A DNA stretch of 32,745 nucleotides. Source: a virus. Numbering within the stretch: the stretch's first letter is position 1; every line of letters starts with the position of its first letter. This document shows, piece by piece, positions 1-24,280 of the stretch. Under the pieces are notes generated by a model, which saw only the letters and a program-made list of their open reading frames with translations, did not search any database and was not told the DNA's origin. The translations under genes and the position numbers were made by a program. The stretch covers positions 1 to 32,745 of the IMG/VR virus record IMGVR_UViG_3300025570_002156; one strand, 5' to 3'.

Positions 1-370
1 TAATCCTAAAATGTAACTGATCAGCATGTATTACATTACTTGCGTCTGTTAGTGTTTTATTCGTGAACGAAATAGGACCATCAGCAAGGTCAGTAACATC
101 ACTCATCAAATGAGTGTGTATGGCTGGAGCAAAATCACCAGAAACATTTATAGCATCTAAAGCTATTTGAGTAGCGGTGCTTATTGGTTTGTTGAGATCA
201 GAAGTATTGTTGACGTTTTCAAGACCAGCAACATCAGCTTGAGTTAAAAGAACATCTCCAACTCTGCCAGCAACAGAAGTTACAGCGCTTTCAGCTACCT
301 TATTAGTAACTTTCGCAGTTCTAATTGGGCTGTTTAAATTGGTTATTGTTACTGTGATTGGTTCAGCCAT
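1..370 (-). CDS. Tail-fibre-like protein, N-terminal part (gene continues beyond window start)
   Basis: The start codon at 368-370 shares a base with the stop of the upstream gene (TAATG), so the two are probably translationally coupled. The visible 123 residues contain GRVGDVLLTQADVAGLENVN followed by NTSDLNKPISTATQIALD. This pairing recurs in phage tail fibres and other virion appendage proteins (GxVGxVxLTxADVxxLxNVxNTSDxxKPxSTATQxAL). A later stretch, ASNVIHADQLHFRI, resembles the beginning of another repeated fibre module. The C-terminal, probably receptor-binding part lies outside the window. Assignment as a virion fibre rests on the motifs; the exact position on the tail is inference. 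Confidence 0.7.
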   Translation of the reverse strand, partial: MAEPITVTITNLNSPIRTAKVTNKVAESAVTSVAGRVGDVLLTQADVAGLENVNNTSDLNKPISTATQIALDAINVSGDFAPAIHTHLMSDVTDLADGPISFTNKTLTDASNVIHADQLHFRI

Positions 371-714
371 TAGTCTGTTATGTGTCTGCTTGTTTTAAGA
401 TACATGGTTTCAGTATAATAGACTGCGCCACTAGGCTCTACGAACTTAATATCGTATTGCAAGCTATAATCAGCTGGTAATACTAATGTTTCGGCTGGTG
501 TAGCAGAAATGCCTACAATACCACTAGCGAAAGAGCCGCTATCAACAGCAAAAGACAAAAGTCCGCTGGCACCTGGTGACTCTTTTAAATCGCTACTAAC
601 GCCCCAACCACTTATGTTTACAGCTATATCAGACTCATCCAAACAGGTAATAACTTGTTCAAAAGTGGAGCCTCTTTTGATTTCTGTTACAGTTTTTTCC
701 AAATCACAAGACAT
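370..714 (-). CDS. Small Ig-like tail/baseplate protein (BppU-N-like fold)
   Basis: This 114-residue protein has the layout of the small beta-sandwich modules found in many phage baseplate and tail genes. A charged start (KTVTEIKRGSTFEQVITCLD) is followed by a segment meaning 'DxxGxPVDLSGxxVxxxLK' in the family (here IAVNISGWGVSSDLKES). It ends with a strand pair, LPADYSLQYDIKFVEPSGAV and YYTETMYLKTSRHITD. It sits directly upstream of the fibre gene with a one-base TAATG overlap. No enzymatic motif is visible. A structural role in the tail is likely; the family name is from pattern recognition, not a search. Confidence 0.5.
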   Translation of the reverse strand: MSCDLEKTVTEIKRGSTFEQVITCLDESDIAVNISGWGVSSDLKESPGASGLLSFAVDSGSFASGIVGISATPAETLVLPADYSLQYDIKFVEPSGAVYYTETMYLKTSRHITD

Positions 715-724
715 CTTATATGTT

Positions 725-752
725 AATACACAAAATAGGAAGAAGGTGTATT
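725..752. repeat. Inverted repeat in the gap upstream of the 370-714 gene
   Basis: Perfect 7-bp arms (aatacac at 725-731, gtgtatt at 746-752) enclose a 14-nt spacer. They lie about 10 nt before the start codon at 714, in the 221-nt gap (715-935) between the fibre genes and the FkbM gene. The gap is very AT-rich and holds no ORF I can support. The repeat could be an operator or a weak hairpin in the 5' leader, but arms this short may arise by chance in such DNA. Confidence 0.3.
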
Positions 753-935
753 GACTTTTAGCAAGTTACTTGTTTAATGAGAATTAGTGGAAAAGTTGTA
801 TTTATTTTTCAAACAGAAATATTTTAAGTGTATAAGGGAGAATTTTTCGTTTTGAAAATTTTTTCATTCTGTAAAATTGTAACCAAATTTTTCAATTACC
901 AAAGACTCCTTCTCCGCAACCATAGTCTGTCTATA

Positions 936-1577
936 CTATAGTTCATTGTTAAATAGCAATTCCCTTCTAAAATATGTATCATTTATCCATATATCATTAT
1001 GGATATGTGTTCGAACATGTTTAAAGCCATGTTCCACTAAAATAGATTTACATAAGTCCCAATTCGGATGATAGCTTTCAATAATAATAATATAAACAGG
1101 GATGTCCCAGTTCATTGTCTGCAATACTTCATGTTCGCACCCCTCAACATCTATAGAAAATAAATCAATATAATTGATTTTAGATTCCATTAAAACTCCA
1201 TGCATTGGTTTTGCTGGAACTGAAATTATTTCCGAATCTTGGTGCCAGCGCTCCTTAAATTTAGAAGAAGTTTGATTAACCACGCTAGATACCAACGGTT
1301 GTTTTGAAACATACATATCAACTTGTGATTGATCTTTTGATATTGCACAGTTGAAACATTGGCTGTTAGGGCGGTTATGCTCTAATAATTTAAATTGTTG
1401 TGGGTCTGGTTCTATTAATACTCCAGAAAACCCCAATGATCTTTCAAACATACATGAGTTGGATTGCTTAACCCCATCTACAGCACCTAACTCAACAAAG
1501 CAACCATCATCTATACTTTGATTAATATAATTTTCGAAAATAAAGGTATCTTCTCCATGCAAACTATATGACTTCAT
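936..1577 (-). CDS. FkbM-family SAM-dependent methyltransferase
   Basis: Predicted 213-residue methyltransferase of the FkbM / Methyltransf_21 type, which commonly O-methylates sugars or other small hydroxylated groups. Seen: SAM-binding motif I FVELGAVDG at about 27-35, the acidic motif EPDP at 56-59, and the family motif IDLFSIDVEGCEHEVL at 137-152. The N-terminus YSLHGEDTFIFENY matches the usual FkbM opening (YSQxGED). I chose the start at 1577, not the longer frame opening at 1619, because it gives an ATGA overlap with the preceding glycosyltransferase stop and begins right at the conserved motif. It is the last gene of the five-gene sulfation/glycosylation run and may cap or modify its glycan product. 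The acceptor is unknown. Confidence 0.85.
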   Translation of the reverse strand: MKSYSLHGEDTFIFENYINQSIDDGCFVELGAVDGVKQSNSCMFERSLGFSGVLIEPDPQQFKLLEHNRPNSQCFNCAISKDQSQVDMYVSKQPLVSSVVNQTSSKFKERWHQDSEIISVPAKPMHGVLMESKINYIDLFSIDVEGCEHEVLQTMNWDIPVYIIIIESYHPNWDLCKSILVEHGFKHVRTHIHNDIWINDTYFRRELLFNNEL

Positions 1578-2557
1578 AATTTTGCTTTCAATCCTTTTAG
1601 TGTTAATATTTCTGAGCAAATAAACTTATCATCTATCTTCTCAATATCAAAATCATTTTTATATATCTCAATACACTTCGCCAATAAAAATTCACCAAAG
1701 CCAAAATCAGCAGAATGTCTAAAGAATATATTATAGAAGTTAGCAATGTTTTTCTTCATACGCAAGACACGCTCTTTATCTTCTAAAAGTAATACGACTT
1801 GCTCATGAATATATTCCATACTATGTTCTCGTAAATCAAATCGTAATATATAATCATCTACATTATCAAATATATTCTCCCATCCATAATCATTCATTGA
1901 TGAAATCATAATTGGAATACATCCCGACATAATAACATCAAAAAAAGAATGCGCCCAAGGCTTGTCGCCTCTAATTATATATGCAGCATCTGAATTCGAT
2001 AGCCTAATAATATGATCAGTAAACACTTTAGGATCGACTTTTGTTTTATAAACATCTTCCGCAAACTCCGATATTTCAAATCTAGAATCATCTATTGTAT
2101 TATAAAACTGAATAAATGGTCTCCGTGTGGTTATATGAGTTTTGCTACGACTGCACCAATAAACCTTATTATGAAATGATGTATTTTGAATATTATAGTC
2201 TAACCAGTATTTAGGTTTCTGTGATACAAGATTGTTATATATCGGGCCATTCGGCATTGGAATTAAATACGGTATATTACAAAAATCATGGATTGAAAAA
2301 CAAAAGTTCTTAAAGGTGGGTATATTATCTATTCTATCATCAACACAATAACCATTTCTAATACCTTTCCTATCGCTATTTAATATGCCTTTTAAAATAT
2401 AGATATGTTTGTCTTCTGGTTTAAGATTACTATTAAAATCTTTTTTCTCAATAACAATATCCGCTTCAATCTTCGAATTGACAAAATTAATACCATCGAA
2501 AGAAAAATCTTTAAAATACCTATCCTTGGTATTAGATCTAGTGAAGATTGAAATCAT
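1574..2557 (-). CDS. Exostosin-like (GT47-type) glycosyltransferase
   Basis: 327 residues. The C-terminal half carries the exostosin signature: IIRGDKPWAHSFFDVIMSGC (about 194-213), then IPIMISS. This corresponds to the family pattern (R)GDxxxxxRxxDxIxxGCIPVIIS that binds the nucleotide sugar. The N-terminal half (HIYILKGILN, CFSIHDFCNIPYLIPMPNG) looks like the divergent acceptor domain of a GT-B fold. No signal peptide or membrane segment is seen, so it would be cytoplasmic. It overlaps the sulfotransferase upstream by 20 bp and the methyltransferase downstream by an ATGA. Exostosins elongate glycosaminoglycan-like chains in animals, and bacterial and viral relatives have varied specificities. 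The sugar transferred cannot be told from sequence. Confidence 0.7.
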   Translation of the reverse strand: MISIFTRSNTKDRYFKDFSFDGINFVNSKIEADIVIEKKDFNSNLKPEDKHIYILKGILNSDRKGIRNGYCVDDRIDNIPTFKNFCFSIHDFCNIPYLIPMPNGPIYNNLVSQKPKYWLDYNIQNTSFHNKVYWCSRSKTHITTRRPFIQFYNTIDDSRFEISEFAEDVYKTKVDPKVFTDHIIRLSNSDAAYIIRGDKPWAHSFFDVIMSGCIPIMISSMNDYGWENIFDNVDDYILRFDLREHSMEYIHEQVVLLLEDKERVLRMKKNIANFYNIFFRHSADFGFGEFLLAKCIEIYKNDFDIEKIDDKFICSEILTLKGLKAKL

Positions 2558-3200
2558 AATTAAATTTATTTATTGCCCACTTTTCCTTTTCTGCGACCAT
2601 ATCAATAAGTTCCTGAGTGAATAAATCTTTCTTGTTGATATTTAAATTCGATGATTTGTTTCTATGTGGAAATTGTTGTTTAGGAAGATTAACCAACTGA
2701 CAAAAATCATTAAAATCGTTTTGAATGTTTTCTAGTTGACCAATTCTATCCATTATTATATTGTTATTACTATCGATAAGATAAGACATTTGAGAGGGAT
2801 TATTTATAATTAAATCTCTTAAAACCTCTTTGTAAGTTTTATTATCAAACCTTTTGACGACGTTCATCTTTTGTCTCTCTTTATTTTCATTTAAAGGTTC
2901 GTTGTCATTTCTGTAGAACTCTAGCTTTGATTTATAATAAGTTAAAAAGGAAAAATACCTATCCCAAGGATTTCTTACAATGCTATATTTAAAATAGTCA
3001 TTATAATCCCAGCCTCGTTTATTAAATTCAGTAATTGCTTCACTAATGGTTCCGTGTTGTTTAAACTCATCATTGCAAACTGGCCTAGGACTCACCTTCT
3101 CCTCAATAACGCCTAAAGGTAGCAAGCTCTTTCTAATCGAGTTTGATGCGGTTTTGGGTATGGCTATTATTAAAAACTTATGTTTATGTGATATTATCAT
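2538..3200 (-). CDS. PAPS-dependent sulfotransferase (Sulfotransfer_2-like)
   Basis: 220 residues with both PAPS-binding elements: the 5'-phosphosulfate loop IPKTASNSIRKS (about 14-25) and the 3'-phosphate motif YSIVRNPWDRYFSF (about 72-85). Spacing and the short C-terminus fit carbohydrate sulfotransferases of the Sulfotransfer_2 group, which transfer sulfate from PAPS to sugar hydroxyls. The start forms an ATGA overlap with the fusion gene upstream. The end overlaps the exostosin-like gene by 20 bp. No membrane anchor is present, unlike Golgi relatives, so a cytoplasmic reaction is expected. The host would have to supply PAPS, since no APS kinase is seen here. Confidence 0.85.
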   Translation of the reverse strand: MIISHKHKFLIIAIPKTASNSIRKSLLPLGVIEEKVSPRPVCNDEFKQHGTISEAITEFNKRGWDYNDYFKYSIVRNPWDRYFSFLTYYKSKLEFYRNDNEPLNENKERQKMNVVKRFDNKTYKEVLRDLIINNPSQMSYLIDSNNNIIMDRIGQLENIQNDFNDFCQLVNLPKQQFPHRNKSSNLNINKKDLFTQELIDMVAEKEKWAINKFNYDFNLH

Positions 3201-4924
3201 TTTATGAGGTTTAGTTTAACTGGAGTGCTGAAAATCTTAGCTATCCAATAAATAAAGCCAGAACCATGTTTATATACACTATGTGACTCCACAGAATTCG
3301 CCAATGTTACTAATTTCATATCAAATACAGCATGGAAAATACCATCATCAGTTGTTTTTATTTCACCAGAAAACCCAGAAGGGTTCTTTTGAATGTGATT
3401 ACTTTCCAAATGAAGAATATGGATTGGTAGTGTTTTGTTTTTTTCTTTTAAATATTTTTTTAAATCGTTTGAGTCTGATAAAACTATAATTGGCTTATCA
3501 TCCTCATTTGATTTGAAAAAGCATTTAACTAAACAATCTTTATATAGTTCTTCTAGGTTTTTACCATGATCAGAAAAGCTGTTTTGATCTCCAAGTCTGA
3601 AATGAATAATGTTATAACCAATGGGCTTTAAGCCTTCTTGTTTCAAACAATCGTCAACAAAACTATTAATTTGGTCTGTAAATTGCAGCCTACTTTTTAG
3701 AAAAGCACAACATCTATTATTAAGCGGCGGCATTAAATTCAAATAATTTATGACATCTCTACTGTCTGTTAAGCATGGATGGTAATTTGAGAAAATGTAT
3801 TTAGTTTCTTGTGGTTTTGTTGTTAGTATGCAGTTTTCTGTATGTTTTTTTAACGAATGCATAAAGTTTCGTGTGTTTTGAAGCTTTAAAGGAATGTCAT
3901 CAATCTTGAAGTTTTTATGTTGGCTTTTTCTATGCTTGAAGTATTTGCTGATCTTATGCCTGTTAATATCAATATCAAAATCAAAACCCTTACTCATACA
4001 ATGGTTAAATAAGTTTACAGAACCCCTTAAAAAATCTCCAAAACCCCCATTTGAACCTTCATAAAAACAGTTTATGACCTTACCTTTAGTTTGTTTTTCG
4101 TCTATGATTTTATTGTTGGCAAACTTTTCATAAAGTAATCTGTCCCATTTTGTTTTGTTGTCAAAGTGTTTTTGAGCGTCTTTATCTAAGTCTTTGTATA
4201 GCGTAATTTGTTTGGTGCTGTTTTCATTTCTCATTTCTTGTTTGTCTTTTATTTTTAGATCAAAGTCTTTTAAATTAAAACACTCCTTACATACTTTTAA
4301 GATGATTGAATCCACATCCGATAAGTTAGAGACCAACATTCCATCTAGCGTGTCGCATGTTTTATTAAAATGTTCTTCAGTAACAATTGTTTCGTCCGAC
4401 AATTTAAGCATCCGTCTAATTAACCAAGACTCCTCTAGGTCATAAGATTTTAAATAATCAGAGAAATTTTTATGATTAAAGCCTTTTGCTGTAGGTTCGT
4501 GGTTAGACTGTTCTGACGATAAGTAATTATATAAGGATAAAGTTTTTTCGTAAGGCTCTCTTAAAAATATAAACTCATAAGGATCTAAATTATCTGAAAG
4601 ATTTTTATATATGTAATCTTTATAATCATTAAAGCTTCTTCCGCACACCTCAATAAATAACAAATTCAAATCATTAAGATCAAAATCGTCATAATCAACA
4701 GAATATGTCCAGCGATCATTGATGCATTTATATTTACCATCAAGATCCTCTTCTGAAGAACAAATCAAACGATAGAGGATATACTCACCCCTCTTTACCA
4801 TGATGTGTCTTATATTGGGACCACATATATAATTTCTAATAACGTAAAAAATTTTATTGAAAGTATATGTTCCCGCACATTTTGGGACATGAAAAAATAC
4901 TGGAAGTTTTTTATTAAAGCTCAT
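3197..4924 (-). CDS. Two-domain fusion: sulfotransferase plus HxRxGD (fucosyltransferase-like) glycosyltransferase
   Basis: 575 residues in two parts. Residues 1 to about 270 are a Sulfotransfer_2-type domain, with 5'-PAPS loop FHVPKCAGTYTFNK (11-24) and 3' motif FLREPYEKTLSLYNYL (120-135). The LREPxExxLSxYxYL form resembles heparan-sulfate-2-O-type sulfotransferases. Residues about 285-575 hold GGFGDFLRG (293-301) and HFRLGD (441-446). HxRxGD is the nucleotide-binding signature of GT-B fucosyltransferases (GT11, GT23 and protein O-fucosyltransferase groups). The two domains are joined by a lysine-rich linker. The gene overlaps both neighbouring sulfotransferase genes (ATGA downstream, 11 bp upstream). 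The sulfotransferase half is well supported. The sugar added by the second half is a guess from one motif. Confidence 0.7.
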   Translation of the reverse strand: MSFNKKLPVFFHVPKCAGTYTFNKIFYVIRNYICGPNIRHIMVKRGEYILYRLICSSEEDLDGKYKCINDRWTYSVDYDDFDLNDLNLLFIEVCGRSFNDYKDYIYKNLSDNLDPYEFIFLREPYEKTLSLYNYLSSEQSNHEPTAKGFNHKNFSDYLKSYDLEESWLIRRMLKLSDETIVTEEHFNKTCDTLDGMLVSNLSDVDSIILKVCKECFNLKDFDLKIKDKQEMRNENSTKQITLYKDLDKDAQKHFDNKTKWDRLLYEKFANNKIIDEKQTKGKVINCFYEGSNGGFGDFLRGSVNLFNHCMSKGFDFDIDINRHKISKYFKHRKSQHKNFKIDDIPLKLQNTRNFMHSLKKHTENCILTTKPQETKYIFSNYHPCLTDSRDVINYLNLMPPLNNRCCAFLKSRLQFTDQINSFVDDCLKQEGLKPIGYNIIHFRLGDQNSFSDHGKNLEELYKDCLVKCFFKSNEDDKPIIVLSDSNDLKKYLKEKNKTLPIHILHLESNHIQKNPSGFSGEIKTTDDGIFHAVFDMKLVTLANSVESHSVYKHGSGFIYWIAKIFSTPVKLNLIK

Positions 4925-5711
4925 TTATCCAGTCAAAGCTTTGTTTGATCTGTTCTGAGAACTCTCTGCCTAAAACATCATGCCAATCTGGCTCAAGTGG
5001 CTTAACTACATTGCGGATACTATGCTCACCATACGGCCATCCAAGCTCATGTTCTTCAGTATATTGCTCCACATTCATTGGATTAACTTCAAACCTATCC
5101 ATCTCAAGGTAATCCCAGATTTTATTCATCTCTTCTACTGGATTGCTAGTGAGTTCTTCTGCGTGAACAAAGTATAATTTATCTTTGTGGCGTTTAATAG
5201 CATCGTGAAGTCTTTCAACCGCAATACCAAGAGGTGGAGTTTGTAACCATCCTTGTGATCTCTTTTCAATGGTCGTCCAGTTCTGTGGGTTTTGTTTTTC
5301 AATACCAACAAACCGTGATGGGTGTTTAATTCTTAGCTTCTCAAAACTAGATAAAATACCACGAATATCCCTTACTGGCACTAATACTTTTGCATCTGGA
5401 AATACTTTAAACAATTGATCCAAATGACCAACCCAACTTCTGCATTTATCTACCACAACTGGTCGATCAGTGTCATCATTAAAAGCATTTTGAACGCCGC
5501 CTTTTACAAAATTAATGTATTGTCTTTCACCATCTAGTGGGGTTTTAAATGTTTTAAATTCCTCTGTTTCAAAGAAGTCTCTAGCAATATATCCCATCTC
5601 ATGAACGCCAGATGTGGCAGTGGCATGAACTTTCGGGTTTTGGGCTAATAGGTTTTGAAGAAGAGTAGAGCAAGCTCTAGGAAGACCAGATGTGAAATGA
5701 ACTGTTTTCAT
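4914..5711 (-). CDS. Sulfotransferase family protein (P-loop, PAPS-dependent)
   Basis: 265 residues beginning almost immediately with the 5'-PAPS loop, SGLPRACSTLLQNLLAQNP (8-26). The 3'-phosphate motif is VLVPVRDIRGILSSFEK (109-125). The phrase VVVDKCRSW (85-93) and the aromatic/acidic C-terminus fit the single-domain sulfotransferase type that occurs in cyanophage and other marine phage genomes. It is the first gene of the five-gene run. A near-consensus promoter ends 8 nt before its ATG, so its mRNA would be nearly leaderless. It overlaps the next gene by 11 bp. The acceptor is unknown; candidates are the glycan built by the downstream glycosyltransferases or a host or phage surface sugar. 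Confidence 0.85.
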   Translation of the reverse strand: MKTVHFTSGLPRACSTLLQNLLAQNPKVHATATSGVHEMGYIARDFFETEEFKTFKTPLDGERQYINFVKGGVQNAFNDDTDRPVVVDKCRSWVGHLDQLFKVFPDAKVLVPVRDIRGILSSFEKLRIKHPSRFVGIEKQNPQNWTTIEKRSQGWLQTPPLGIAVERLHDAIKRHKDKLYFVHAEELTSNPVEEMNKIWDYLEMDRFEVNPMNVEQYTEEHELGWPYGEHSIRNVVKPLEPDWHDVLGREFSEQIKQSFDWINEL

Positions 5712-5719
5712 ATACTAGT

Positions 5720-5747
5720 ATTATATATACTAATAAAAAAAAGTCAA
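5720..5747 (-). promoter_or_regulatory. Sigma-70-like promoter of the sulfotransferase operon
   Basis: Read on the minus strand: -35 TTGACT (5742-5747), a 16-nt spacer, then a perfect -10 TATAAT (5720-5725). The ATG follows after only 8 nt, so a start 6-7 nt past the -10 would give an almost leaderless mRNA. The -10 sits within a small inverted repeat (tagtat 5716-5721 / atacta 5727-5732), a possible operator. It lies in the 42-nt gap after the LRR gene. Confidence 0.7.
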
Positions 5748-5753
5748 CAAAAA

Positions 5754-6626
5754 TTATGGTATGTTAGGGTAGTTTGTCCAATCTATTACGGTGACTCCTG
5801 TTTTGCCGCCAACTGTTTGACCAGCGCCCAATGTCCAGCCGCTGGCTACTGCATCTTTAGCATAGACGGTAGTTAGTCCAGAGACGTAAAATGCCTGACT
5901 ACCAACGTTTGCTAATGGAGGCGCTAGATATGCTGTAGTCAAGAGAGAGCAATAAAAAAAAGCATAATTCGAAATACTCGTAACACTATTCGGAATCACT
6001 AATGGACCAGTTAAGCCAGAACAACCACCAAAAGAATAACTCGTAATAGTTGTAACACTATTTCCAATAGTTAATGAACCGTTAAAGCCTTGGCAATAAT
6101 AAAAAGCATAACTCCCAATACTCGTAACACTATCTGGAATCACTAAATCACCAGTTAAGCCAATGCAATATCTAAAAGCATAACTCCCAATACTTGTAAC
6201 ACTATTTCCAATCGTTAATGGACCAGACCAAGAATCGCTACTGAAACCCATATTAAAAGCATAATCCCCAATAGTTGTAACACTATCTGGAATAACTAAT
6301 GAACCAGTTAAGCCATTGCAATAATAAAAAGCACTACTCCCAATACTCGTGCAACTTGTGCCAATTACTAATCCTTTTAAAGAGGCGTCGTTGCTTTTCC
6401 AGTTATCTGGTATATCTCCTTGGATTTGGTCATAAGATGGACCAGTAGAATCAAAAACAATAGTTTGAGTTCCAATACCGCCGCCTTCTATAGCGTCCCA
6501 TGATGATCCGTTAAATGATTTGTGTTCGCTTGTTGTTTCATCAAACACAATAGTCCCAACGGCAACGTCAGTTGGAAGATCTGAAGTTGCGTATTTAGCT
6601 GGTGGTATTTTAGTTGTGTGTGACAT
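5754..6626 (-). CDS. BspA-like leucine-rich-repeat protein, copy 1 (virion-associated?)
   Basis: 290 residues. The N-terminus (SHTTKIPPAKYATSDLP, then VGTIVFDETT and FNGSSWDAI) follows the pattern GTxxYDxTxxxxxxxNGSxW that opens many phage fibre and virion proteins. The rest is a string of LRR_5 (BspA/TpLRR-type) repeats of about 23-27 residues, with the core SIGxxAFxxCxxLxGxLxIxxSVT, about six in all. It ends WTNYPNIP. Such repeats form a curved solenoid used for protein or carbohydrate binding in bacterial surface proteins. The codons around the Cys of each repeat vary while the framework is constant. The gene follows copy 2 with one base between stop and start. A receptor-binding or adhesion role is inference. 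Confidence 0.8.
   Translation of the reverse strand: MSHTTKIPPAKYATSDLPTDVAVGTIVFDETTSEHKSFNGSSWDAIEGGGIGTQTIVFDSTGPSYDQIQGDIPDNWKSNDASLKGLVIGTSCTSIGSSAFYYCNGLTGSLVIPDSVTTIGDYAFNMGFSSDSWSGPLTIGNSVTSIGSYAFRYCIGLTGDLVIPDSVTSIGSYAFYYCQGFNGSLTIGNSVTTITSYSFGGCSGLTGPLVIPNSVTSISNYAFFYCSLLTTAYLAPPLANVGSQAFYVSGLTTVYAKDAVASGWTLGAGQTVGGKTGVTVIDWTNYPNIP
5969..6356. repeat. Tandem imperfect coding repeats (LRR units, copy 1)
   Basis: About six units of roughly 70-80 bp share the plus-strand core cccaatactcgtaacactat or close variants (near 5969, 6041, 6116, 6186, 6267 and 6340). They encode the LRR_5 repeats of the overlapping gene. The same core recurs in the two sister genes, which gives ample homology for unequal recombination or gene conversion. 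Confidence 0.75.
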
Positions 6627-6627
6627 C

Positions 6628-7344
6628 TTATGGTATGTTAGGGTAGTTTGTCCATTCGGTTATAGTCAATGATTTACCTTGAAATGTTTGCGCTCCAGAA
6701 GTATATCCTAATGCTGTTACACCATTAACATATATAGTAGTGAGACCAGCCCCTCCTAAAGCGTTTACCCCAACCCATGATGATGCTGGTGTGTTAACAT
6801 AGAGTGTAGAGAAACTATTGCAATAATAAAACGTATAACTCCCAATACTTGTAACACTATCTGGTATAACTATTGCTCCTCCAAAAGTAGTATCAGTAAA
6901 AGCATAAGCCCCAATACTCGTAACACTATTTCCAATAATTAATGAACCAGTTAAGTCAACGCAATTCTGAAAAGCCCTATTCCCAATACTTGTAACACTA
7001 TCTGGGATAACTAATGAACCAGTTAAGGCGGAGCAACTATAAAAAGCATTACTCCCAATACTTGTACATGATGTCCCAATTACTAATCCTTTTAAAGAGC
7101 TGTCGCTGATTTTCCAGTTGGCGGGAATGTCTCCTTGGATTTGGTCGATTACCCCAGCTACATTATCTCTAACGTAAGTAGTAGAGCCTACACCTCCAGA
7201 ACCCCCGAAGTCACCCCAAGAACTATTCTTAAACGCAACCATCTTTTGGTTGGTTTTATCATAAGCAACTGTTCCTTCTGGCGGGTTGCTAGGAAGGTCG
7301 CCAGCTGCATATTGGCTAGGTGGCTCTTTACTTGTGTGGCTCAT
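6628..7344 (-). CDS. BspA-like leucine-rich-repeat protein, copy 2
   Basis: 238 residues, paralogous to the genes on either side. The N-terminus SHTSKEPPSQYAAGDLP, with EGTVAYDKT and FKNSSWGDF, is the same virion-type opening. A linker IDQIQGDIPANWKISDSSLK is shared by all three copies. Four LRR_5 units follow (TSIGSNAFYSCSALTGSLVI and variants), then a short tail, STLYVNTPASSWVGVNALGG, also found in copy 3. The end is WTNYPNIP. The gene starts 1 nt after the stop of the DUF4376-like gene. It is shorter than copy 1 by about two repeats, which fits expansion and contraction of the array. Confidence 0.8.
   Translation of the reverse strand: MSHTSKEPPSQYAAGDLPSNPPEGTVAYDKTNQKMVAFKNSSWGDFGGSGGVGSTTYVRDNVAGVIDQIQGDIPANWKISDSSLKGLVIGTSCTSIGSNAFYSCSALTGSLVIPDSVTSIGNRAFQNCVDLTGSLIIGNSVTSIGAYAFTDTTFGGAIVIPDSVTSIGSYTFYYCNSFSTLYVNTPASSWVGVNALGGAGLTTIYVNGVTALGYTSGAQTFQGKSLTITEWTNYPNIP
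6839..7075. repeat. Tandem imperfect coding repeats (LRR units, copy 2)
   Basis: Four units share the cccaatact(c/t)gtaacactat core near 6839, 6910, 6980 and 7056, matching the LRR_5 repeats of the gene they lie in. They are close in sequence to the arrays near 5969-6356 and 8143-8305. Confidence 0.7.
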
Positions 7345-7345
7345 A

Positions 7346-7909
7346 TTACCATTGAACGGCTTTTAATTCTGCAACAGTAGTTGCGGCATCGATTGACCCA
7401 TTGGCTACTTTTTCTTTTGTAAATGCTTCTTTAAGGTGGGCAGTAACAGCATCAGATAGACCAATTATAGTTGGGGAATCGATTGTCATGAATGTTCCAT
7501 TGCCTAGTTTCCAATCCGTAGTAAATGCGGCATCTTCTTTTGCCAAGAATCTTGCTTGATAAATTCTCTCAACTGTAAACCTATCGGTTCTTACGTCAAG
7601 TCCGTTCCAAACTATACCTCCAACCTCAAAATCATATCTTCTTTCTGCGAAATGATCTCTAAGAATCTCTTTACCTGCATCAAGATCGGCACTGTTGTCT
7701 ATTTTTTCATCAATAAAGCTTCTTCTCATTTTTTGGAAGCCTTCTTCTTGTGTCAGTAGAATACCATCAATGATAAAGAATCTATCCTCACTTGCTTGCA
7801 CTGTGGCTGCATCTGCATCTGAAATTTCGCTGTAGTTTGGAGCCTCTGTTGGCTCTGTATCTACTATGTTAAAAATTGCCCCTCTTGGGCCTGTGATTGC
7901 GTATTTCAT
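7346..7909 (-). CDS. Tail-fibre-associated protein with DUF4376-like C-terminus
   Basis: 187 residues. The N-terminal part (MKYAITGPRGAIFNIVDTEP) resembles the short virion-anchoring or chaperone-like starts of phage fibre-assembly proteins. The C-terminal half (about 90-170) reads RRYDFEVGGIVWNGLDVRTD, then YQARFLAKED, a Trp-containing strand, then a helix LSDAVTAHLKEAFTKEK. That order matches DUF4376, a domain common in phage genes next to tail fibres. It lies between two LRR genes. Its product may assist or connect the LRR fibres, but this is inferred from position only. Confidence 0.55.
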   Translation of the reverse strand: MKYAITGPRGAIFNIVDTEPTEAPNYSEISDADAATVQASEDRFFIIDGILLTQEEGFQKMRRSFIDEKIDNSADLDAGKEILRDHFAERRYDFEVGGIVWNGLDVRTDRFTVERIYQARFLAKEDAAFTTDWKLGNGTFMTIDSPTIIGLSDAVTAHLKEAFTKEKVANGSIDAATTVAELKAVQW

Positions 7910-7933
7910 ATTGTTTTTTAGTTAAAATTTGTA

Positions 7934-8578
7934 TTATGGTATGTTAGGGTAGTTTGTCCATGCGGATACAGTCATTCCAGATCCTCCTTGGAATGTAGCA
8001 CTGTATTGACCAGTGACATCTGGTCCTTCGTAGATGTTGACAAGTGCTGTTGTTCCGTTTAAAGCATTTGTTCCGACCCATGATGCTGCTGGTGTGTTGG
8101 TGTAAAGAGCGGTGATGGAAGAGCAACCATTAAAAGCATTATCCCCAATACTCGTAACACTATTCCCAATAGTTAATGAACCATTTAAGCCAGTGCAAAA
8201 GAAAAAAGAAGCAAGCCCAATAGTCGTGACACTATCTGGTATCACTAATGAGCCAGTTAAGCCAAAGCAATAATCAAAAGCAAGACTCCCAATACTTGTG
8301 CAAGATGTGCCAATTACTAATCCTCTTAAAGAGGAGTCGTTCTGTTTCCAGTCAGCAGGAATATCTCCTTGGATTTGGTCCGTGTTACCAATAGCAGCAC
8401 CATCATCATAAACAACGGTAGGTGTACCACCACCACCACCAGCAATACTCTCCCATGCGCCATTTATTCTTGCTACTGGCTTACCCGCAGCAGCATCATA
8501 AGCAACAGTGCCATCTTTCGCATCTGGAAGATCTGCAATTGCATTAGCTGTTGGAGGAGTTTTCGCAGTGTGGCTCAT
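7934..8578 (-). CDS. BspA-like leucine-rich-repeat protein, copy 3
   Basis: 214 residues with the same three-part plan as its paralogues. The opening is SHTAKTPPTANAIADLP with DGTVAYDAA and INGAWESIAGGGG, and the linker is TDQIQGDIPADWKQNDSSLR. About three LRR_5 units follow, with Cys-flanking residues differing between units (AFDYCFGL, ASFFCTGL, AFNGCSSI). The tail ALYTNTPAASWVGTNALNG matches copy 2 and the end is WTNYPNIP. It is the first of the three copies to be transcribed. Its start codon shares a base with the stop of the upstream fibre gene (TAATG). Confidence 0.8.
   Translation of the reverse strand: MSHTAKTPPTANAIADLPDAKDGTVAYDAAAGKPVARINGAWESIAGGGGGTPTVVYDDGAAIGNTDQIQGDIPADWKQNDSSLRGLVIGTSCTSIGSLAFDYCFGLTGSLVIPDSVTTIGLASFFFCTGLNGSLTIGNSVTSIGDNAFNGCSSITALYTNTPAASWVGTNALNGTTALVNIYEGPDVTGQYSATFQGGSGMTVSAWTNYPNIP
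8143..8305. repeat. Tandem imperfect coding repeats (LRR units, copy 3)
   Basis: Three units of about 70 bp with cores near 8143, 8213 and 8288 encode the LRR_5 repeats of the overlapping gene. This is the shortest of the three arrays. Confidence 0.65.
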
Positions 8579-9162
8579 TATTGTATATAGTAACCAGATA
8601 CTCCATCACTGAATATAGAGATAGCTTCGTTTTGAGATGTTAAGGTATAACCGCTTACAAGACCATCACTTACAACACCGTCAATAGTGCAACCACTAGG
8701 AGGAAGAAGCAGAACATCGCAACTATTGCCTATTTTTTTGTGGACAGTAACAGCTTCATGTAGTGTTGGGTCGAGAAGATCAACCGCGATACAAGCTCCA
8801 CCTCCACCGCTACCGTTATCACCAAGATCTGTGTCATCGTAAAGGTGATGTGTGTGCTGTGGGATTTGTGTATAAGTTGGGGTGTCTACCGTGACAACGC
8901 TAAAATTAGCGGCACCTCCACCGCCTTGAGCTTCTTCCCAGGTTGCGTTTCCACCGCCATCTGCAGTGATAACGTAACCGCTTACGGCTGTCGCAGAATC
9001 AATATCACCAACCACATGTTGGTGACTTGCAGGAGCGTAGTTCCCAGACACAGCTTCAACACCAGATATACGAGATTCGATCTCTGATATATTGGTATTA
9101 TAATTGTTGCGGAATGTCAAGTGAGTTGATCCACTTGTGGGTATGAAAGGATTTAGTGCCAT
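8578..9162 (-). CDS. Tail fibre / virion appendage protein
   Basis: 194 residues of low-complexity, fibre-like composition. The start MALNPFIPTSGSTHLTFRNN and the helix ISEIESRISGVEAVSGNYAP resemble short trimerising fibre stems. The segment HQHVVGDIDSATAVSGYVIT, with ADGGGNATWEEA, is a common module of phage fibres (HxHxxxDI..., VLTADGxGxxxW). Glycine runs and a second His-rich patch, IPQHTHHLYDD, follow. The last part is beta-rich and could be a small head domain. Coupled by TAATG to LRR copy 3, which suggests they are made together and perhaps assemble together. Confidence 0.6.
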   Translation of the reverse strand: MALNPFIPTSGSTHLTFRNNYNTNISEIESRISGVEAVSGNYAPASHQHVVGDIDSATAVSGYVITADGGGNATWEEAQGGGGAANFSVVTVDTPTYTQIPQHTHHLYDDTDLGDNGSGGGGACIAVDLLDPTLHEAVTVHKKIGNSCDVLLLPPSGCTIDGVVSDGLVSGYTLTSQNEAISIFSDGVSGYYIQ

Positions 9163-9183
9163 TATTTTTTATTTTTAAATTTA

Positions 9184-9648
9184 TTAATCGAAGGTCGCAG
9201 CAAGCTCAATATAACCGTCTACTTTTTCTTGAGTCCAACCAAGATAAGCAACAGCACCAAGAAATAATGCATTGTCTCTTTTGAATACAGCAGCATGAGA
9301 CCAACCATCAATAACATTTTGGTCGCCACTGCCAGCAACAAAAGCATCTACAGCAGCACGATCAGCAGGGACCGTGTTGAGGGCTTGTTTGATCTGATAG
9401 TTTGTTACCTCGTTAATTACTTGAACAGGGACATCCTCAAGCTTCCAACCATAAGAATCAACAGTAAGTTCTCTAACATAACGCTGTCCTTCTGGGGCAT
9501 CATTTGGGACGGTAAGGTTTTCAACGTATTTGTAACCATCTGGTGTTTGCGGGGCCGCAGCTTCACGGGTAATAGATGACGGCAGACCATTCAAACTCTT
9601 ATAGCGGAGTTTAAGAGGGCTAAGGTTTATTAGTTGATAAGTTTTCAT
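9184..9648 (-). CDS. Fibre-associated protein with helical C-terminal domain
   Basis: 154 residues, not recognised as a named family. The N-terminal half is beta-rich, with TVPNDAPEGQRYVRELTVDS. The C-terminal half (about 80-150) is helical: VTNYQIKQALN, then WSHAAVFKRDNALFLGAVAYLGWTQEKVDGYIELA (split by short turns). This resembles the small helical domain often encoded beside phage tail fibres (VTxxQxxxAL...W..A..F.RxxxL...L...LGxTxxxxDxLF). It sits between two fibre-type genes. Role unknown; assembly or attachment is a guess from context. Confidence 0.4.
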   Translation of the reverse strand: MKTYQLINLSPLKLRYKSLNGLPSSITREAAAPQTPDGYKYVENLTVPNDAPEGQRYVRELTVDSYGWKLEDVPVQVINEVTNYQIKQALNTVPADRAAVDAFVAGSGDQNVIDGWSHAAVFKRDNALFLGAVAYLGWTQEKVDGYIELAATFD

Positions 9649-9660
9649 TTTAAAAAGTGT

Positions 9661-10089
9661 TTAGGTTGCTTGGCTAACATAAAGATAATTATCTGTACCG
9701 TCGTGATACCAACCAACAGAAGCCGCTCCAATGCCAGAGGCTGTAATCGAAGCTATATCTGCGAGATCGCCAGCAAGAACGTCATATGTGCTAGTGAATG
9801 TCCAGCCAGCTGTGTTGTCTTGCTCGACAAGAATCAGGCCAGAATCTCCAGACGCAGCGTTTGTAATGGAAAAGGTAGTTACGTCCTCGGTGAGGGTTGT
9901 TGTAGCATTACCTCCAAGGGATGTATCAAAAGCAAGTGAACCAGCTGAAGAACTTATTGGTTGTTGTAAGGTTTTATCCTCTAAGCCTCCAATTCTCGTC
10001 TCAGAATCAGCAAAGTTTGCATTCATCCCGCTGAGAACGTTCTCATGCGTAGTAACCCCTGTAGTAATTGAAATTTGATTTTGTGCCAT
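9661..10089 (-). CDS. Small virion/fibre-like protein
   Basis: 142 residues, no named family. It starts MAQNQISITTGVTTHENVLS, then a short heptad-like helix NANFADSETRIGGLEDKTLQ like the stalks of trimeric fibres. A beta-rich region with repeating T/S/A/G follows (GGNATTTLTEDVTTFSITNA), ending GWYHDGTDNYLYVSQAT. That ending is similar in type to fibre and head-fibre knob domains (WxxDGxxxYL). The gene lies in the minus-strand run of fibre genes, 12 nt after the previous stop. Structural role probable, exact location unknown. Confidence 0.45.
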   Translation of the reverse strand: MAQNQISITTGVTTHENVLSGMNANFADSETRIGGLEDKTLQQPISSSAGSLAFDTSLGGNATTTLTEDVTTFSITNAASGDSGLILVEQDNTAGWTFTSTYDVLAGDLADIASITASGIGAASVGWYHDGTDNYLYVSQAT

Positions 10090-10093
10090 GTTG

Positions 10094-10429
10094 TTAAGTT
10101 ATTGTTACGTTACCGTTTTCGTCCGTAGTCGTGGCTGGTTTTGCCGCCACCTTGGCAAAGATATTATCAAGATCTGATTGGCGACGACCACCTAGAACAT
10201 TGTTTAAATATATTAATGTTTGTTCGTTTATATCAAAAAGTTCGCCAGCATCTTCACCAAGAGCGTCAAGAACTGCTTGCGGGTTTGGATCGCTCCATAT
10301 CATGTCCCAGCCTTCATGCCAGCATCTTATAATCTCATTAGCTAACGCGACATTGAGGTATTTAATCCTAGAGGCTTTTCTCTTTGGACTGTTTTGTGAT
10401 GGTTGTTGTATTTCGTTAAGTAAGCTCAT
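10094..10429 (-). CDS. Hypothetical phage protein
   Basis: 111 residues, not recognised. Mostly helical, with an aromatic patch ALANEIIRCWHEGWDMIWS (about 29-47) and a later segment LFDINEQTLIYLNNVLGGRR. The C-terminus is a disordered TTTDENGNVTIT. The order (helix, short loop naming an alanine-rich 'LDALGEDAGELF' stretch, helix) resembles small proteins found among marine phage tail genes, but I cannot name a function. It sits in tight series with the small genes on either side. Confidence 0.4.
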   Translation of the reverse strand: MSLLNEIQQPSQNSPKRKASRIKYLNVALANEIIRCWHEGWDMIWSDPNPQAVLDALGEDAGELFDINEQTLIYLNNVLGGRRQSDLDNIFAKVAAKPATTTDENGNVTIT

Positions 10430-10441
10430 TTTTGTTTTAAG

Positions 10442-10642
10442 TTATTCGGTAGGCCAAATAGATTCATTATTCCAAACATCTCCATTAACCCATAATGTTT
10501 CATCACCCTCAACCCAAAGGCAAGAATCTTGCCATGCGATAGAATCTTTCCAAAGATTAGAACAACAAACGAGTATAGAAGCAGTCTTAGTGCGAAGTCT
10601 GCTAAATACAGTGTTTAATCCTCGTATTGAGAGAGATTTCAT
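10442..10642 (-). CDS. Small tryptophan-periodic protein
   Basis: 66 residues, function unknown. After a basic N-terminus and a CC pair (26-27), six tryptophans fall at 31, 37, 43, 51, 57 and 63, with spacings of 6, 6, 8, 6, 6. Each is followed by short polar or acidic residues (LWVEGDETLWVNGDVW). Such regular spacing suggests a small repeating beta structure or turn motif and not random coding. It is packed 3 nt from the upstream stop in the fibre gene run, which supports a real gene. Confidence 0.45.
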   Translation of the reverse strand: MKSLSIRGLNTVFSRLRTKTASILVCCSNLWKDSIAWQDSCLWVEGDETLWVNGDVWNNESIWPTE

Positions 10643-10645
10643 TTT

Positions 10646-10897
10646 TTAGCTTGAGTAATAAAGGATTGCGTCTCCAGCAGTAAGTTCAATAGAAGTCCAA
10701 TCTCCAACGATTACATCGCCAAGAGCTATTGCTGCTCCGTCAAAATTTGATATGCTACCCACTGTTCCTGCACCAATAGTGCAATCATCAAGGGCATGAA
10801 TTGCCATGAAATTTCCAGTGTGGGTCCCTACCCCTACTCTTTCTCCTCCGTAGTGACCTACTTGTTTTAAAAGGGTTGATTGTGTTGATGTTGACAT
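10646..10897 (-). CDS. Small beta-rich virion-type protein
   Basis: 83 residues without a recognised family. Rich in Gly, Ala, Thr and Ile, with no charged catalytic pattern. The series CTIGAGTVGSISNFDGAAIA, then GDVIVGDWTSIELTAGDAIL, reads as alternating short strands, as in small decoration or fibre-tip proteins of phages. Starts after a 28-nt AT-rich gap. A structural guess only. Confidence 0.35.
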   Translation of the reverse strand: MSTSTQSTLLKQVGHYGGERVGVGTHTGNFMAIHALDDCTIGAGTVGSISNFDGAAIALGDVIVGDWTSIELTAGDAILYYSS

Positions 10898-10925
10898 ATA
10901 AATACATACACATCTAATCTATTTT

Positions 10926-11171
10926 TTACAAATATTTAAAGGAGATTCTTCCTACGTTTTTGTTTTCGTCAGAAATGAAACCAGACAATAATATACCCTT
11001 GTCACAAAAAGTAACAGATTTCATATCAAACAAATAAGCATCACCATTGCAATGCGCATCTAAGGCTTGCTGTCTTTGAGTGAACACGAAGTCTCCAATC
11101 TCGAAAACCTTATTTTCTAGGTGTTTTGTGGTCGAGTTTGTTCCTATTACTTTGAACTTGCAATTCTTCAC
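10926..11171 (-). CDS. Hypothetical protein
   Basis: 81 residues, not recognised. Beta-rich throughout (FKVIGTNSTTKHLENKVFEI, YLFDMKSVTFCDKGILLSGF). It opens with MKNCKFKVIG and ends NVGRISFKYL, possibly one small barrel. Its first 62 bp overlap the 3' end of the upstream gene in another frame. There is no later in-frame Met until about residue 51, so the long overlap is probably real. No functional claim. Confidence 0.35.
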   Translation of the reverse strand: MKNCKFKVIGTNSTTKHLENKVFEIGDFVFTQRQQALDAHCNGDAYLFDMKSVTFCDKGILLSGFISDENKNVGRISFKYL

Positions 11172-11685
11172 GGTGATTTAGTATGGATTCTTTAGTTAAA
11201 TACACAGAATCATAAGGTAGATCTTCATTTTCTTTGTAGGTCATGGCTTTTATATATCTTTTAAAAAATAACTTCATTGAATTTTTTTTGTTTTTTCTAT
11301 AAATTAAACCTTCTATGTTGTCTATAGAGAAGTAATTAATAGCATATAAGCAAAGAGAATAAAAGTTATGCCGCATTATATCTGCGGAAAGGTTGAGGTT
11401 TGTGTTGGGCATCGCAAAATACAAGTCAATGAAACCGCCCTTATCTTTTTTGAAAAAGGTAAAAAACAAATAATCTTCTTCGGATTTAGCCGTAATTGAT
11501 AATTGACATTTTTCTTTTAAGTGTTCAAGGAAGTTTTCGGACGCGATATCCCTGCAAGAAATAGAATAAAAATTATGAATTTGGTCGAATGGTGCCGAAT
11601 GTAAACAGTATTTTTTTATAATATTGTTTGATTCTTGATCGCCAAAATCAACGAGTTCTATTTTTGTGTTATTTGTTTTCGGCAT
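11110..11685 (-). CDS. Hypothetical protein, possibly GNAT-like
   Basis: 191 residues, not recognised with confidence. The middle is beta-rich (DYLFFTFFKKDKGGFIDLYF). It continues into helices and then NIEGLIYRKNKKNSMKLFFK followed by RYIKAMTYKENEDLPYDSVYL. The phrase 'NKxSxxxFKR...' after a strand is reminiscent of the C-terminal part of GNAT acetyltransferases. However, the acetyl-CoA loop (R/QxxGxG/A) is not visible. It overlaps the gene upstream by 17 bp and the gene downstream by 62 bp. Function left open. Confidence 0.35.
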   Translation of the reverse strand: MPKTNNTKIELVDFGDQESNNIIKKYCLHSAPFDQIHNFYSISCRDIASENFLEHLKEKCQLSITAKSEEDYLFFTFFKKDKGGFIDLYFAMPNTNLNLSADIMRHNFYSLCLYAINYFSIDNIEGLIYRKNKKNSMKLFFKRYIKAMTYKENEDLPYDSVYLTKESILNHREELQVQSNRNKLDHKTPRK

Positions 11686-14757: not shown

Positions 14758-17700
14758 ATGAAACATTTTGAAATAAAAAATACACTTGCTGGCGCTAAAG
14801 GAGGAGCCTCTAAACCAAAACCTGCTACACTTAAACCTCCTAAGATAGGAGATTACTCTGTCGCCGCGTCTTTTTCTTATTCAGAAACTGTTGATTTACT
14901 TTCTGACGGACCTATAGAGGGCCTTTCAAATTCAAACAGTTATGTTTTAAATCCAACATCTTACCTTCAAGGGGTTTATTTAAACGATGTCCCAGTGGAA
15001 CAGACAAGCGAAGCATTCATAGAAAGATCGCAAGAAAATATAACAACTTTAATAGGTAGCGGCCAAAGTGCTGAGTCATTTACTGGTGCTATATCACAAG
15101 CTTTTGGAACAGTAAGTGACTTTTCTTATAATGAAATAATTGTTCCGAAAAATTTAAGAATGCGATATGTATATAGTGATAGGTCAATCATTTGGAATAG
15201 CTCAAACCCTAGCAGCAGGGATCGTGTATATGGGGCTAATAATATTCCTTCTGAACGATATAGAGCCTTTTCAGATATAAGAAATCTTTTTTCACCAATC
15301 GCTGATTATACATTAATATCTCAAAACTTTTACGGACAAGGTACTACAAACAACAGGTGGCGTGATACTATGTTTGGGTGTATTGACCTTGAGCCAGCTT
15401 TTTCGGGGCAAGTAGTTTCTTATGGCACAAATGAGGTGTATGGGGGATTACACACTAGCATAAATGAGGGTTTATATAGGTACCAGGAAAGAAGGATTAG
15501 GCAGAATTACCTGGAGGCTGGTAGCTCATCTAATTTTAGTATATACGCGAAGCAAACAAGGGAGTTTTGGTTCGCTGATGGAGATAAATATAAAATAAAT
15601 GCTTCCGCACAAGCGTTGTCTGATGCAAAAAAAGTAGCTGGCGGAACCTGCTTTTTTACCAAGCAGTCTACTGAAGAAGGCGGGGCTAATACTTTTTATA
15701 CAGAAATTTGCCTTCAGGTTTCAGAGTGGGAAGAATCTATCAATAGTGCAAATCCATTAGGGATTTTCAGAAAAGAAATATCAGACTCTATAAATCAATT
15801 AGTAGATACAGTAAACGTACAAGATGACAGCCGCTCTTCAGGAAAACTTTCGTCGGAATTTTTGAGAGAAAGACTAAAAGCTTTAGGTTTTAATTTAAAT
15901 GCAACTCCAATCGAAAATAACGAAGTAATTTACGAACAAATAACTAGAAACGATATTACAGATCTCGTTAAAACTAAGCTAAAAACAGATCAGCCAGGGT
16001 TGGACGTAATAAATCCTTATCTTTTTGTTAATCATGATGAAGGTTACGCTATTGATGGCTATATAGAGTCGGAGCATAAAGATATATTCAAAACAGAAAC
16101 ATTTGTTGATACGGTAGAATACGGAAAACAATATAATAGTCAAGATTTATTCTTTTATGGAGATGTTTATTATATATGTACAGCAAGCGTATTAACATCT
16201 CCCGCAAGCGCAGCGGTACAAGAGATTGGCGCTTGGATTACACAACAACTAGCACTAGCTACTCCGACAATAGCTACAACAGGTAAACCTGGAGATCAAC
16301 TTGATTATTCTCTATCAATAGAGCCTGTATCTACAGAGATAAGGTCACAGTCCTCTGGAAAAGTGATTAATCTTATTATACCAAAGTTAGATTCAAACGG
16401 GAATTGGAACGGACAAGTTTGGGGTTTTAATATAGAATCTTTTAATTTATCTATTGGCATTGGTGGGGCGTTAAGAGTAAATGATGATGGTAAATACAAA
16501 AAAACCAGAGATGGTTATTTTTTACAATCATTAATGCCGTCTAAGGAAATAAACTACCTTAAAAACATTACTGGATTAGGTGTTTTTTCTTTTGGATATA
16601 GATCTAATTCTTTGGGTGCTAAGAAATATAATTACTCAAATGTAATGATGGAATTTAGAAATGGACAACAATTTCAAGAGCCATTAGATTACTTCAAAAA
16701 TATTTACATAGACAAATTTTATAATTCGGAATTGTTGGGGCCATTCAATACTAGGGGGGCATTAAAACCAGATTTATTTGGAATTTTAGATAGCGATTAT
16801 TATGGGGTTCAAAAAATAAAGGCAAATGGAACTTTGAAAAAGTTAGAGCTGGGTGGAGACAAAATCCCTGATTTGAATTTTCCACTTGATCCCAACACCG
16901 ATAACTACTTACTAAATTCAATCCCAGAGATGGACGAGTCTTACCTTGCTGCAATAGAAGAAGGTAGTAAAGATATAAGACAAAATACAAAATCCTTTTC
17001 AGACTGGAATACAAGCAAGGTAGATTATGACGAAAGAGCACAACCAGTAACACATATAATAGAAAATCCGAACGTTTCTTCTTGCTTTGTTACTTTGTCT
17101 TTAAAATCTTTATCTGATACGGTAGATAAAGAGGGTATCCTTAGCCTTGGAGCAGGAAACGGCAATGCCGATATTGGGACTAAGATCCCAGCACCACTAA
17201 ACATAAGAATAGAAACAGGATTAATAGACGAAAATGGAGGCGAAACAATTTTAGTAGAAAAGTTTTTTCAAATAATTGCGCTTGTAGAGGCTCCCAACTA
17301 CTTAGATATAGGTAACCCAGATGCTAAAGATTCTATTGGCGAATATGATGATGTGAAAGAAATAAACCAAACCTTAGAAGGTATTGCTCAGGGAGGGATA
17401 TCCCAGCCTTTTATATTACCTCCTATACCTTACAATGATATAGAAGAAGATACGGCGGGTAGGGAAGATAAAAAAGAAAAAAGGTATATAAAAATAACGA
17501 AACTTTCGACAGAGTCTAACTCAACTTTAATATCTAAAGTTATTTCATTAGTAAAAGTCACTGAAATAATTGAATCTCAATGCAGCTACCCTTTTTCAGC
17601 TATAGTAGGAACCAAGATAGACTCTAGGGTTTTTAACGACATACCAAAAAGAACTTACAGAGGTAAGTTCAAAAAAGTAAAAATACCATCAAACTACTTC

Positions 17701-21678: not shown

Positions 21679-21838
21679 GATTTGGAGACAACAAAACAGC
21701 TAAAGAGAGAAGAAAGTCAGATCTTAAGTGTTTTGGTGTTTTATTATATTGTTTTTTAGCCCTTCTGTAAACGCGCCTTGTGGTTGCGTCTTGTGGGTTA
21801 ATGATCTCTCTTATTTTTTTTGCTGCTGCGCTGTTCAT
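21665..21838 (-). CDS. Small basic protein (57 aa)
   Basis: A short frame, missed by a 60-residue cut-off. The start at 21836-21838 forms an ATGA overlap with the stop of the GNAT gene upstream. The stop at 21665-21667 lies 14 bp inside the DUF736-like gene. Residues 1-40 are basic and helical (AAAKKIREIINPQDATTRRV, then YRRAKKQYNKTPKHLRSD), followed by a hydrophobic helix FLLSLAVLLS. The tight coupling on both sides and the filled gap argue for a real gene. Its role is unknown; nucleic-acid or protein binding would fit the charge. Confidence 0.55.
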   Translation of the reverse strand: MNSAAAKKIREIINPQDATTRRVYRRAKKQYNKTPKHLRSDFLLSLAVLLSPNHAED

Positions 21839-22293
21839 AATCTTGCTATAAATGTTGTGCTGTCCTTTACAAATCCTAACTTCCTATAAAGCTTTTTGAG
21901 TTTTGGTTCGCTTGGGTTCATTGCCGCCGCAGAAACGACTACATACTCAAACTTTTTTTCCCTAGCGAATTTTATAGCTTCTTTGAAGACCTTAAAGCCA
22001 ACCCTTGGATTTTTAGACAACCATAAAAACTCTAGAAAAAGATTCTTACCAAACTTTACGCTTTTATCATTCAAGAAAATACACACCGCATTAAACTTGC
22101 CTTCGTCTTTATTGCCCCAGACAAAAACGTCCCAAGCTAGAAGTTGACTACTGCCAAAACTATTTATTATGGTTTCTTTATTGTGTTTCAAATCAAGAAC
22201 ATGTCCTTCTTCTGAGTTTTCAATATCAAACAGGTCATTCATATCGCAAATGACCTGTTTGAACTCTTCTGGATTTGTTATTCTTTTTATCAT
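21835..22293 (-). CDS. GNAT-family N-acetyltransferase
   Basis: 152 residues with the GNAT order. A strand carries LAWDVFVWGNKDEGKFNAVC (52-71), then ends LFLEFLWLSKNP (85-96). A helix VGFKVFKEAIKFAREKKFEY (98-117) stands where the acetyl-CoA loop normally is. A strand VVVSAAA follows, then the family C-terminal motif KLKKLYRKLGFVKDSTTF (131-148). The classical RxxGxG/A pyrophosphate loop is weak here (RVGFKVF), so substrate and activity are uncertain. Coupled by ATGA to the candidate annealing gene upstream and to the 57-residue gene downstream. Phage GNATs can modify host or phage proteins; the target is not known. Confidence 0.65.
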   Translation of the reverse strand: MIKRITNPEEFKQVICDMNDLFDIENSEEGHVLDLKHNKETIINSFGSSQLLAWDVFVWGNKDEGKFNAVCIFLNDKSVKFGKNLFLEFLWLSKNPRVGFKVFKEAIKFAREKKFEYVVVSAAAMNPSEPKLKKLYRKLGFVKDSTTFIARL

Positions 22294-24279: not shown

Positions 24280-24280
24280 A

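Follow-up and report, generated by a model that had tools for sequence, protein, structure and literature searches.

In P22-like phages, tailspike and gtr genes travel together. The locus described here lies in a window of 32,745 bases (the whole stretch of viral DNA analysed), and it shares with such gtr-type morons and receptor-modifying cassettes its own promoter, a position beside a fibre gene, and absence from this site in close relatives, the last applying to a four-gene islet and not to the sulfotransferase gene, ST1, that precedes it. It differs from them in that no terminator-like site was found on the minus strand of window positions 1-8000, in that its relatives appear to be virulent, and in that it encodes enzymes predicted for sulfation instead of glucosylation. 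Annotated phage sulfotransferases are found in the cyanophages S-SCSM1, S-SRM01 and S-SKS1, and in phage DLP_6. These are single phage-encoded genes from the same broad families as those of the window, with identities of at most about 30%; the cyanophage genes examined, unlike ST1, are not beside LRR genes, and some are located within groups of replication genes. In virome surveys, phage sulfotransferases are counted among the genes of sulfur metabolism (PMC13079714). In the bacterium Xanthomonas, the sulfotransferase RaxST is encoded beside its secretion partners raxA/raxB (PMC4216712). RaxST resembles ST1 in gene setting, as a prokaryotic sulfotransferase gene that sits with genes of the same process, and differs from it in being bacterial and in serving a secreted signal instead of a phage fibre. 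Finally, BspA-type LRR_5 proteins of gut phages, such as that of Ruminococcus phage NatCom_23091, are encoded beside a minor tail gene as in the window, although in this phage no sulfotransferase is annotated beside the LRR_5 gene. Single phage sulfotransferases, and receptor-binding genes accompanied by a modifying enzyme, are already known; what appears to be new here is the pairing of sulfation with an LRR fibre-like gene, and a search of the open-licence literature found no paper joining a phage, a sulfotransferase and a leucine-rich-repeat fibre.

The window is the virus record of a siphovirus-like phage, with lambda-type J, K and L homologues, minor tail proteins, a DNA polymerase and an AAA ATPase. 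Five minus-strand ORFs, each overlapping the next, occupy positions 936-5711, within the fibre region, between LRR_5 genes on one side and gp370 and the fibre gene 2-370 on the other. The features of this region are as follows.

6628-8578, minus strand: further LRR_5 genes (6628-7344 and 7934-8578) around a DUF4376 tail-fibre gene (7346-7909).
5754-6626, minus strand: LRR1, BspA-type LRR_5 fibre-like protein of 290 aa, directly upstream of ST1 (Pfam LRR_5, E 7e-37).
5712-5753, minus strand: ST1 promoter, TTGACT-16-TATAAT, 11/12 consensus, with its -10 element 8 nt before the ST1 ATG.
4914-5711, minus strand: ST1, TPST-like PAPS-dependent sulfotransferase (Sulfotransfer_3) of 265 aa (Pfam E 6e-16, AlphaFold2, Foldseek, PDB profile).
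3197-4924, minus strand: FUS, 575 aa, an N-terminal sulfotransferase plus an HxRxGD domain at residues about 280-575 (alignment members, Foldseek).
2538-3200, minus strand: ST3, Sulfotransfer_2-type sulfotransferase of 220 aa (Pfam E 9e-11; phrog_3347).
1574-2557, minus strand: exostosin/GT47-like glycosyltransferase, partial match, 327 aa (Pfam E 2e-6, below cut-off).
936-1577, minus strand: FkbM-type methyltransferase of 213 aa, from ATG 1577 (Pfam Methyltransf_21, E 4e-18).
370-714, minus strand: gp370, a conserved gene beyond the variable site (phrog_1084).

The overlaps measure 11 nt (ST1/FUS), 4 nt (FUS/ST3), 20 nt (ST3/GT47-like) and 4 nt (GT47-like/FkbM). The TTG at 1619, listed as the start of FkbM, is probably wrong, ATG 1577 being the start in the relative L006. 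ST1 has a GC content of 38%, near the about 40% of its fibre neighbours; GC falls to 29-33% in the four AT-rich genes that follow. A Shine-Dalgarno-like site precedes only 1 of 29 window genes, and a search for Bacteroidota-type promoters (TTTG-N-TAnnTTTG), as a clue to the host, returned two matches, neither at a relevant gene. We additionally noted that the three minus-strand LRR_5 paralogues at 5754-8578, interrupted by the DUF4376 tail-fibre gene, have an N-terminal MSHTxKxPP segment in common.

We identified 38 viral loci with a gene of the ST1 subfamily (at least 63% identical), on contigs of 4 to 148 kb. In 35 of the 35 contigs with enough upstream sequence, the gene immediately before ST1, on the same strand, is an LRR_5 gene; this set includes near-identical contigs and related lineages and does not amount to 35 independent events. 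In the other three, the contig starts less than 180 nt before ST1. The spacing between the two genes is usually about 40 nt (range 0 to 304). The 90 remote homologues of the sulfotransferase are for the most part bacterial; 88 of them lack an LRR_5 gene within 3 kb, and the two exceptions, in L071 and L072, are second copies that follow an ST1. Window-type LRR genes are followed by ST1, or by FUS in L004 and L005, wherever the contig goes on. Most of the more distant ST1 loci (L074-L094) have no window gene in common beyond LRR, ST1 and, in some, the fibre-associated DUF4376, indicating that the LRR-ST1 pair travels between different phages. Gut-phage LRR_5 genes with no adjacent sulfotransferase do exist (e.g. 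L224), and a search for LRR_5 controls in ten bacterial genomes yielded none. As a variant of the arrangement, a tandem pair of ST1-family genes occupies positions 4280-6104 of L071, the second about 40% identical.

The LRR proteins of ST1 phages vary in their N-terminal and C-terminal regions, and the repeat domain is common to all ST1 partners, which favours the repeat domain as the conserved substrate of ST1. Tyrosine stands at the main position of the repeats in 42% of cases in ST1 phages, against 33% in a small control set of gut-phage LRRs, which does not amount to a clear enrichment, and few of the LRR tyrosines are in an acidic context. The LRR_5 genes sit among tail genes, as in L203, where an LRR_5 ORF of 2072 aa (5126-11344) lies close to a J homologue; the LRR proteins matched none of the PHROGs with a tail function. 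We infer a virion-fibre role for the LRR protein. An even longer LRR_5 ORF, of 4393 aa, was seen at positions 2491-15672 of L205.

ST1 itself is a member of a virus-specific sulfotransferase subfamily. A bacterial origin was considered and rejected, the best match in bacterial genomes being 40%, most being about 30%, and none lying beside an LRR gene. In a Foldseek search with the AlphaFold2 model (pLDDT 85), the top nine matches were human or tick TPST (best E 8e-9, with moderate TM-scores of 0.50-0.60), and heparan 3-O-sulfotransferases ranked closely behind. The sequence profile gave TPST1 in the PDB at E 4e-5, with a polyketide-synthase sulfotransferase equally close. TPST1 and TPST2 (Pfam Sulfotransfer_3) thus offer the closest solved fold, and share with ST1 the PAPS motifs (GLPRACSTLL and LVPVRDIRGILSS in ST1) and an aligned Lys and Arg: K89 and R114 of ST1, invariant in 26 sequences, align with TPST residues of NKDPF/VRDGR. 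They differ in being animal enzymes, and both the acceptor and the catalytic Glu of ST1 are predicted at most. Invariant H37-E38, at the start of the matching helix, is a candidate for the catalytic Glu, although the sequence alignment does not put it on TPST2 Glu99. As modelled, the fold class appears TPST-like, pointing to protein, perhaps tyrosine, sulfation.

The ST1 promoter block is near-invariant across 10 aligned sequences, and its 24-nt core is present in 12 IMG/VR contigs, as a single copy in each. An inverted repeat, AGTAT-ATATA-ATACT (5716-5732), overlaps the -10 element, is conserved in relatives and is possibly an operator. Sigma70-like promoters placed just before the ATG (at least 10/12 match) precede 8 of 18 ST1 starts, compared with 8 of 110 control genes, taken from non-ST1 genes preceded by a gap (Fisher p 2e-4; the near clade was reduced to one representative, and the lineages are not fully independent). 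No promoter was found before any of the four genes behind ST1 in the window, and FUS in L004 and L005, where it stands immediately behind the LRR gene, has its own (11/12). Other ST1 lineages have no promoter, and in several of them the LRR-ST1 gap is just 0 to about 30 nt. Read from the sequence, the promoter geometry would give transcripts with little or no leader, which agrees with the scarcity of Shine-Dalgarno sites. A terminator-like site precedes the islet in L006. In L080, we spotted by eye a terminator-like ACCTCG...CGAGGTTTTTTT between LRR and ST1, just before the promoter-like site of ST1.

We compared the enzymes with a first-pass annotation of the locus, which had described five genes overlapping end to end on one strand behind one near-consensus promoter, encoding three sulfotransferase domains with PAPS motif pairs, two glycosyltransferases, one of them exostosin-like GT47, and an FkbM methyltransferase. 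The ORF coordinates agree with this layout, and the promoter stands as described, before ST1 and conserved in relatives. ST1, ST3 and FkbM pass the Pfam cut-offs, and ST3 additionally matches the galactose-3-O-sulfotransferase family phrog_3347 (E 2e-19). The third sulfotransferase, in FUS, is borne out by three members of its alignment that match Sulfotransfer_2 (best E 2e-5), the FUS sequence itself having zero Pfam matches, and by weak Foldseek matches of its model to heparan 2-O/6-O-sulfotransferases. In each of the three proteins a 5'-PSB-like motif is paired with a 3'-PB motif; PKCAGT, the 5' member of the pair in FUS, was recognised by eye. The best matches of the three differ, being TPST for ST1, heparan sulfotransferases for the N-terminal half of FUS and carbohydrate-type families for ST3. 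The GT47 assignment survives in part: the match covers only the C-terminal, donor-binding part of the protein, at 28.0 bits against a cut-off of 33.4, and the profile of the protein reaches EXT2 at E 0.026. Homologues of this protein are present in L006, L057 and L058. The count of two glycosyltransferases was not upheld, as the HxRxGD half of FUS has no match in Pfam, in a PDB sequence profile or in Foldseek (the model has pLDDT below 50 there), and is a candidate glycosyltransferase, not an established one. A GT11-type fucosyltransferase was tried for this half and rejected (hhalign probability 0.2% against one GT11 member, with a shallow profile); a resemblance to fucosyltransferase motifs (HFRLGD, LSDSN, GSGF) does not count as a test. 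FUS looks like a fusion, because L054 has two adjacent genes at 15815-17473, one for a sulfotransferase and the other homologous to the C-terminal half of FUS. Among the named phages of INPHARED, FUS and GT47 have no match, and ST1, ST3 and FkbM have distant ones only.

The gene content between the LRR array and gp370 varies between relatives. gp370 lies downstream of the variable site in the window and in L003, L004, L006, L051, L053, L054 and L065. ST1 stands alone 49 nt before gp370 in L051 and L053, is followed by gp370 in L065, and is separated from it by about 300 nt in L054. In L003, ST1 is followed by a methyltransferase, FUS, ST3, two methyltransferase-like genes, an unknown gene and an epimerase-like gene. 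L004 has FUS, an unknown gene and ST3 behind its LRR gene, and L005 has FUS and a DUF6492-like gene behind its LRR gene up to the contig end, both without ST1. In L006, the order is FUS-N-like sulfotransferase, ST3, GT47, FkbM, with neither LRR nor ST1 in the 21-kb contig. The simplest reading is that glycan-modifying genes are gained and lost at the LRR array-gp370 site, which would act as an exchange site. Long gene runs with several sulfotransferases were also seen in L057, L058, L060 and L008, three of the four with GT47 homologues.

It is improbable that the five genes form one dedicated pathway to a sulfated, methylated glycan. Such a pathway would suit the overlapping genes behind a single promoter and the matching order of a FUS-N-like sulfotransferase, ST3, GT47 and FkbM in L006, but ST1 occurs alone in L051, L053 and L065, FUS occurs without ST1 in L004 and L005, and L003 holds another mixture; ST1 goes with LRR and not with the islet, and the second glycosyltransferase is a candidate only. 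Because the genes are shuffled among relatives at the LRR-gp370 site, the five are not one system, and the annotation, which had proposed a single five-gene sulfation/glycosylation system, had itself named such shuffling as speaking against it. What it missed is that ST1 is tied to the upstream LRR gene instead of the four downstream genes. Its broader view holds, namely that genes for sulfate, sugar and methyl transfer are co-transcribed in the fibre region and are likely to act on the virion or the receptor. We consider it more improbable still that the enzymes sulfate small molecules as auxiliary sulfur-metabolism genes: the literature does count sulfotransferases as sulfur AMGs (PMC13079714), but this would leave the fixed position behind LRR_5 genes unexplained.

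Two readings place the action of ST1 in host recognition. We favour, at a probability of roughly 45%, a cassette of a fibre and its modifying enzyme, with the LRR fibre protein as the acceptor of the sulfate that ST1 transfers. The locus is two-layered, with a conserved LRR_5-ST1 cassette and an exchangeable AT-rich islet. ST1 would take sulfate from PAPS, which must come from the host since no window gene matched to a family makes PAPS, and would transfer it to hydroxyl groups, with tyrosines the likeliest targets, on the LRR protein encoded by the neighbouring gene, altering the charge of the fibre and its receptor binding. The islet (FUS, ST3, GT47-like and FkbM), which in this phage is part of the ST1 transcript, would probably alter a glycan in the infected cell. 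Moderate TM-scores, the closeness of heparan 3-O-sulfotransferases, the lack of a clear tyrosine enrichment, the small number of tyrosines in an acidic context, the absence of LRR matches to tail PHROGs, a host-type promoter that permits expression ahead of the fibres, the carbohydrate-type enzymes encoded on the ST1 transcript and the gut-phage LRR_5 genes without a sulfotransferase speak against fibre sulfation. The more specific proposal, that a mobile receptor-binding cassette in diverse phages carries a dedicated tyrosine sulfotransferase that decorates the LRR fibre with sulfate, a modification for which the open-licence literature searched gave no description in phage virions, is on balance unlikely, though conceivable. 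Alternatively, ST1 and the islet enzymes may sulfate or otherwise alter a host surface glycan bound by the LRR fibre, preventing superinfection or the loss of progeny on debris, a reading that we regard as doubtful and nonetheless a serious competitor. It would explain the linkage to a binding protein equally well, and the islet enzymes are of carbohydrate-modifying types. The sigma70-like promoter at ST1, and at FUS in L004 and L005, permits early expression; this host-type promoter suggests expression of ST1 separate from the late fibre genes, with which a host target fits equally well. Against it, the nearest structures to ST1 are protein sulfotransferases, and ST1 is conserved over phages with different LRR proteins and backbones, which would be odd if their receptors differ. 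We additionally found no tyrosine recombinase in 18 related contigs, many of them partial, so that prophage conversion is unlikely and these phages are probably virulent.

Given its constant association with a fibre-like gene, one sulfotransferase subfamily may act in host recognition instead of sulfur metabolism. With a sulfated fibre, host range could hinge on a chemical change that the sequence of the fibre does not reveal; with a sulfated receptor, the result would be a superinfection barrier based on sulfation. Elsewhere in the window, we noted a second glycosyltransferase cluster on the minus strand (22290-26137), with a GT9 (heptosyltransferase-like) gene at 23119-24378 and a GT4 gene with DUF4214 at 24281-26137, adjoined by an acetyltransferase-like gene at 21835-22293.
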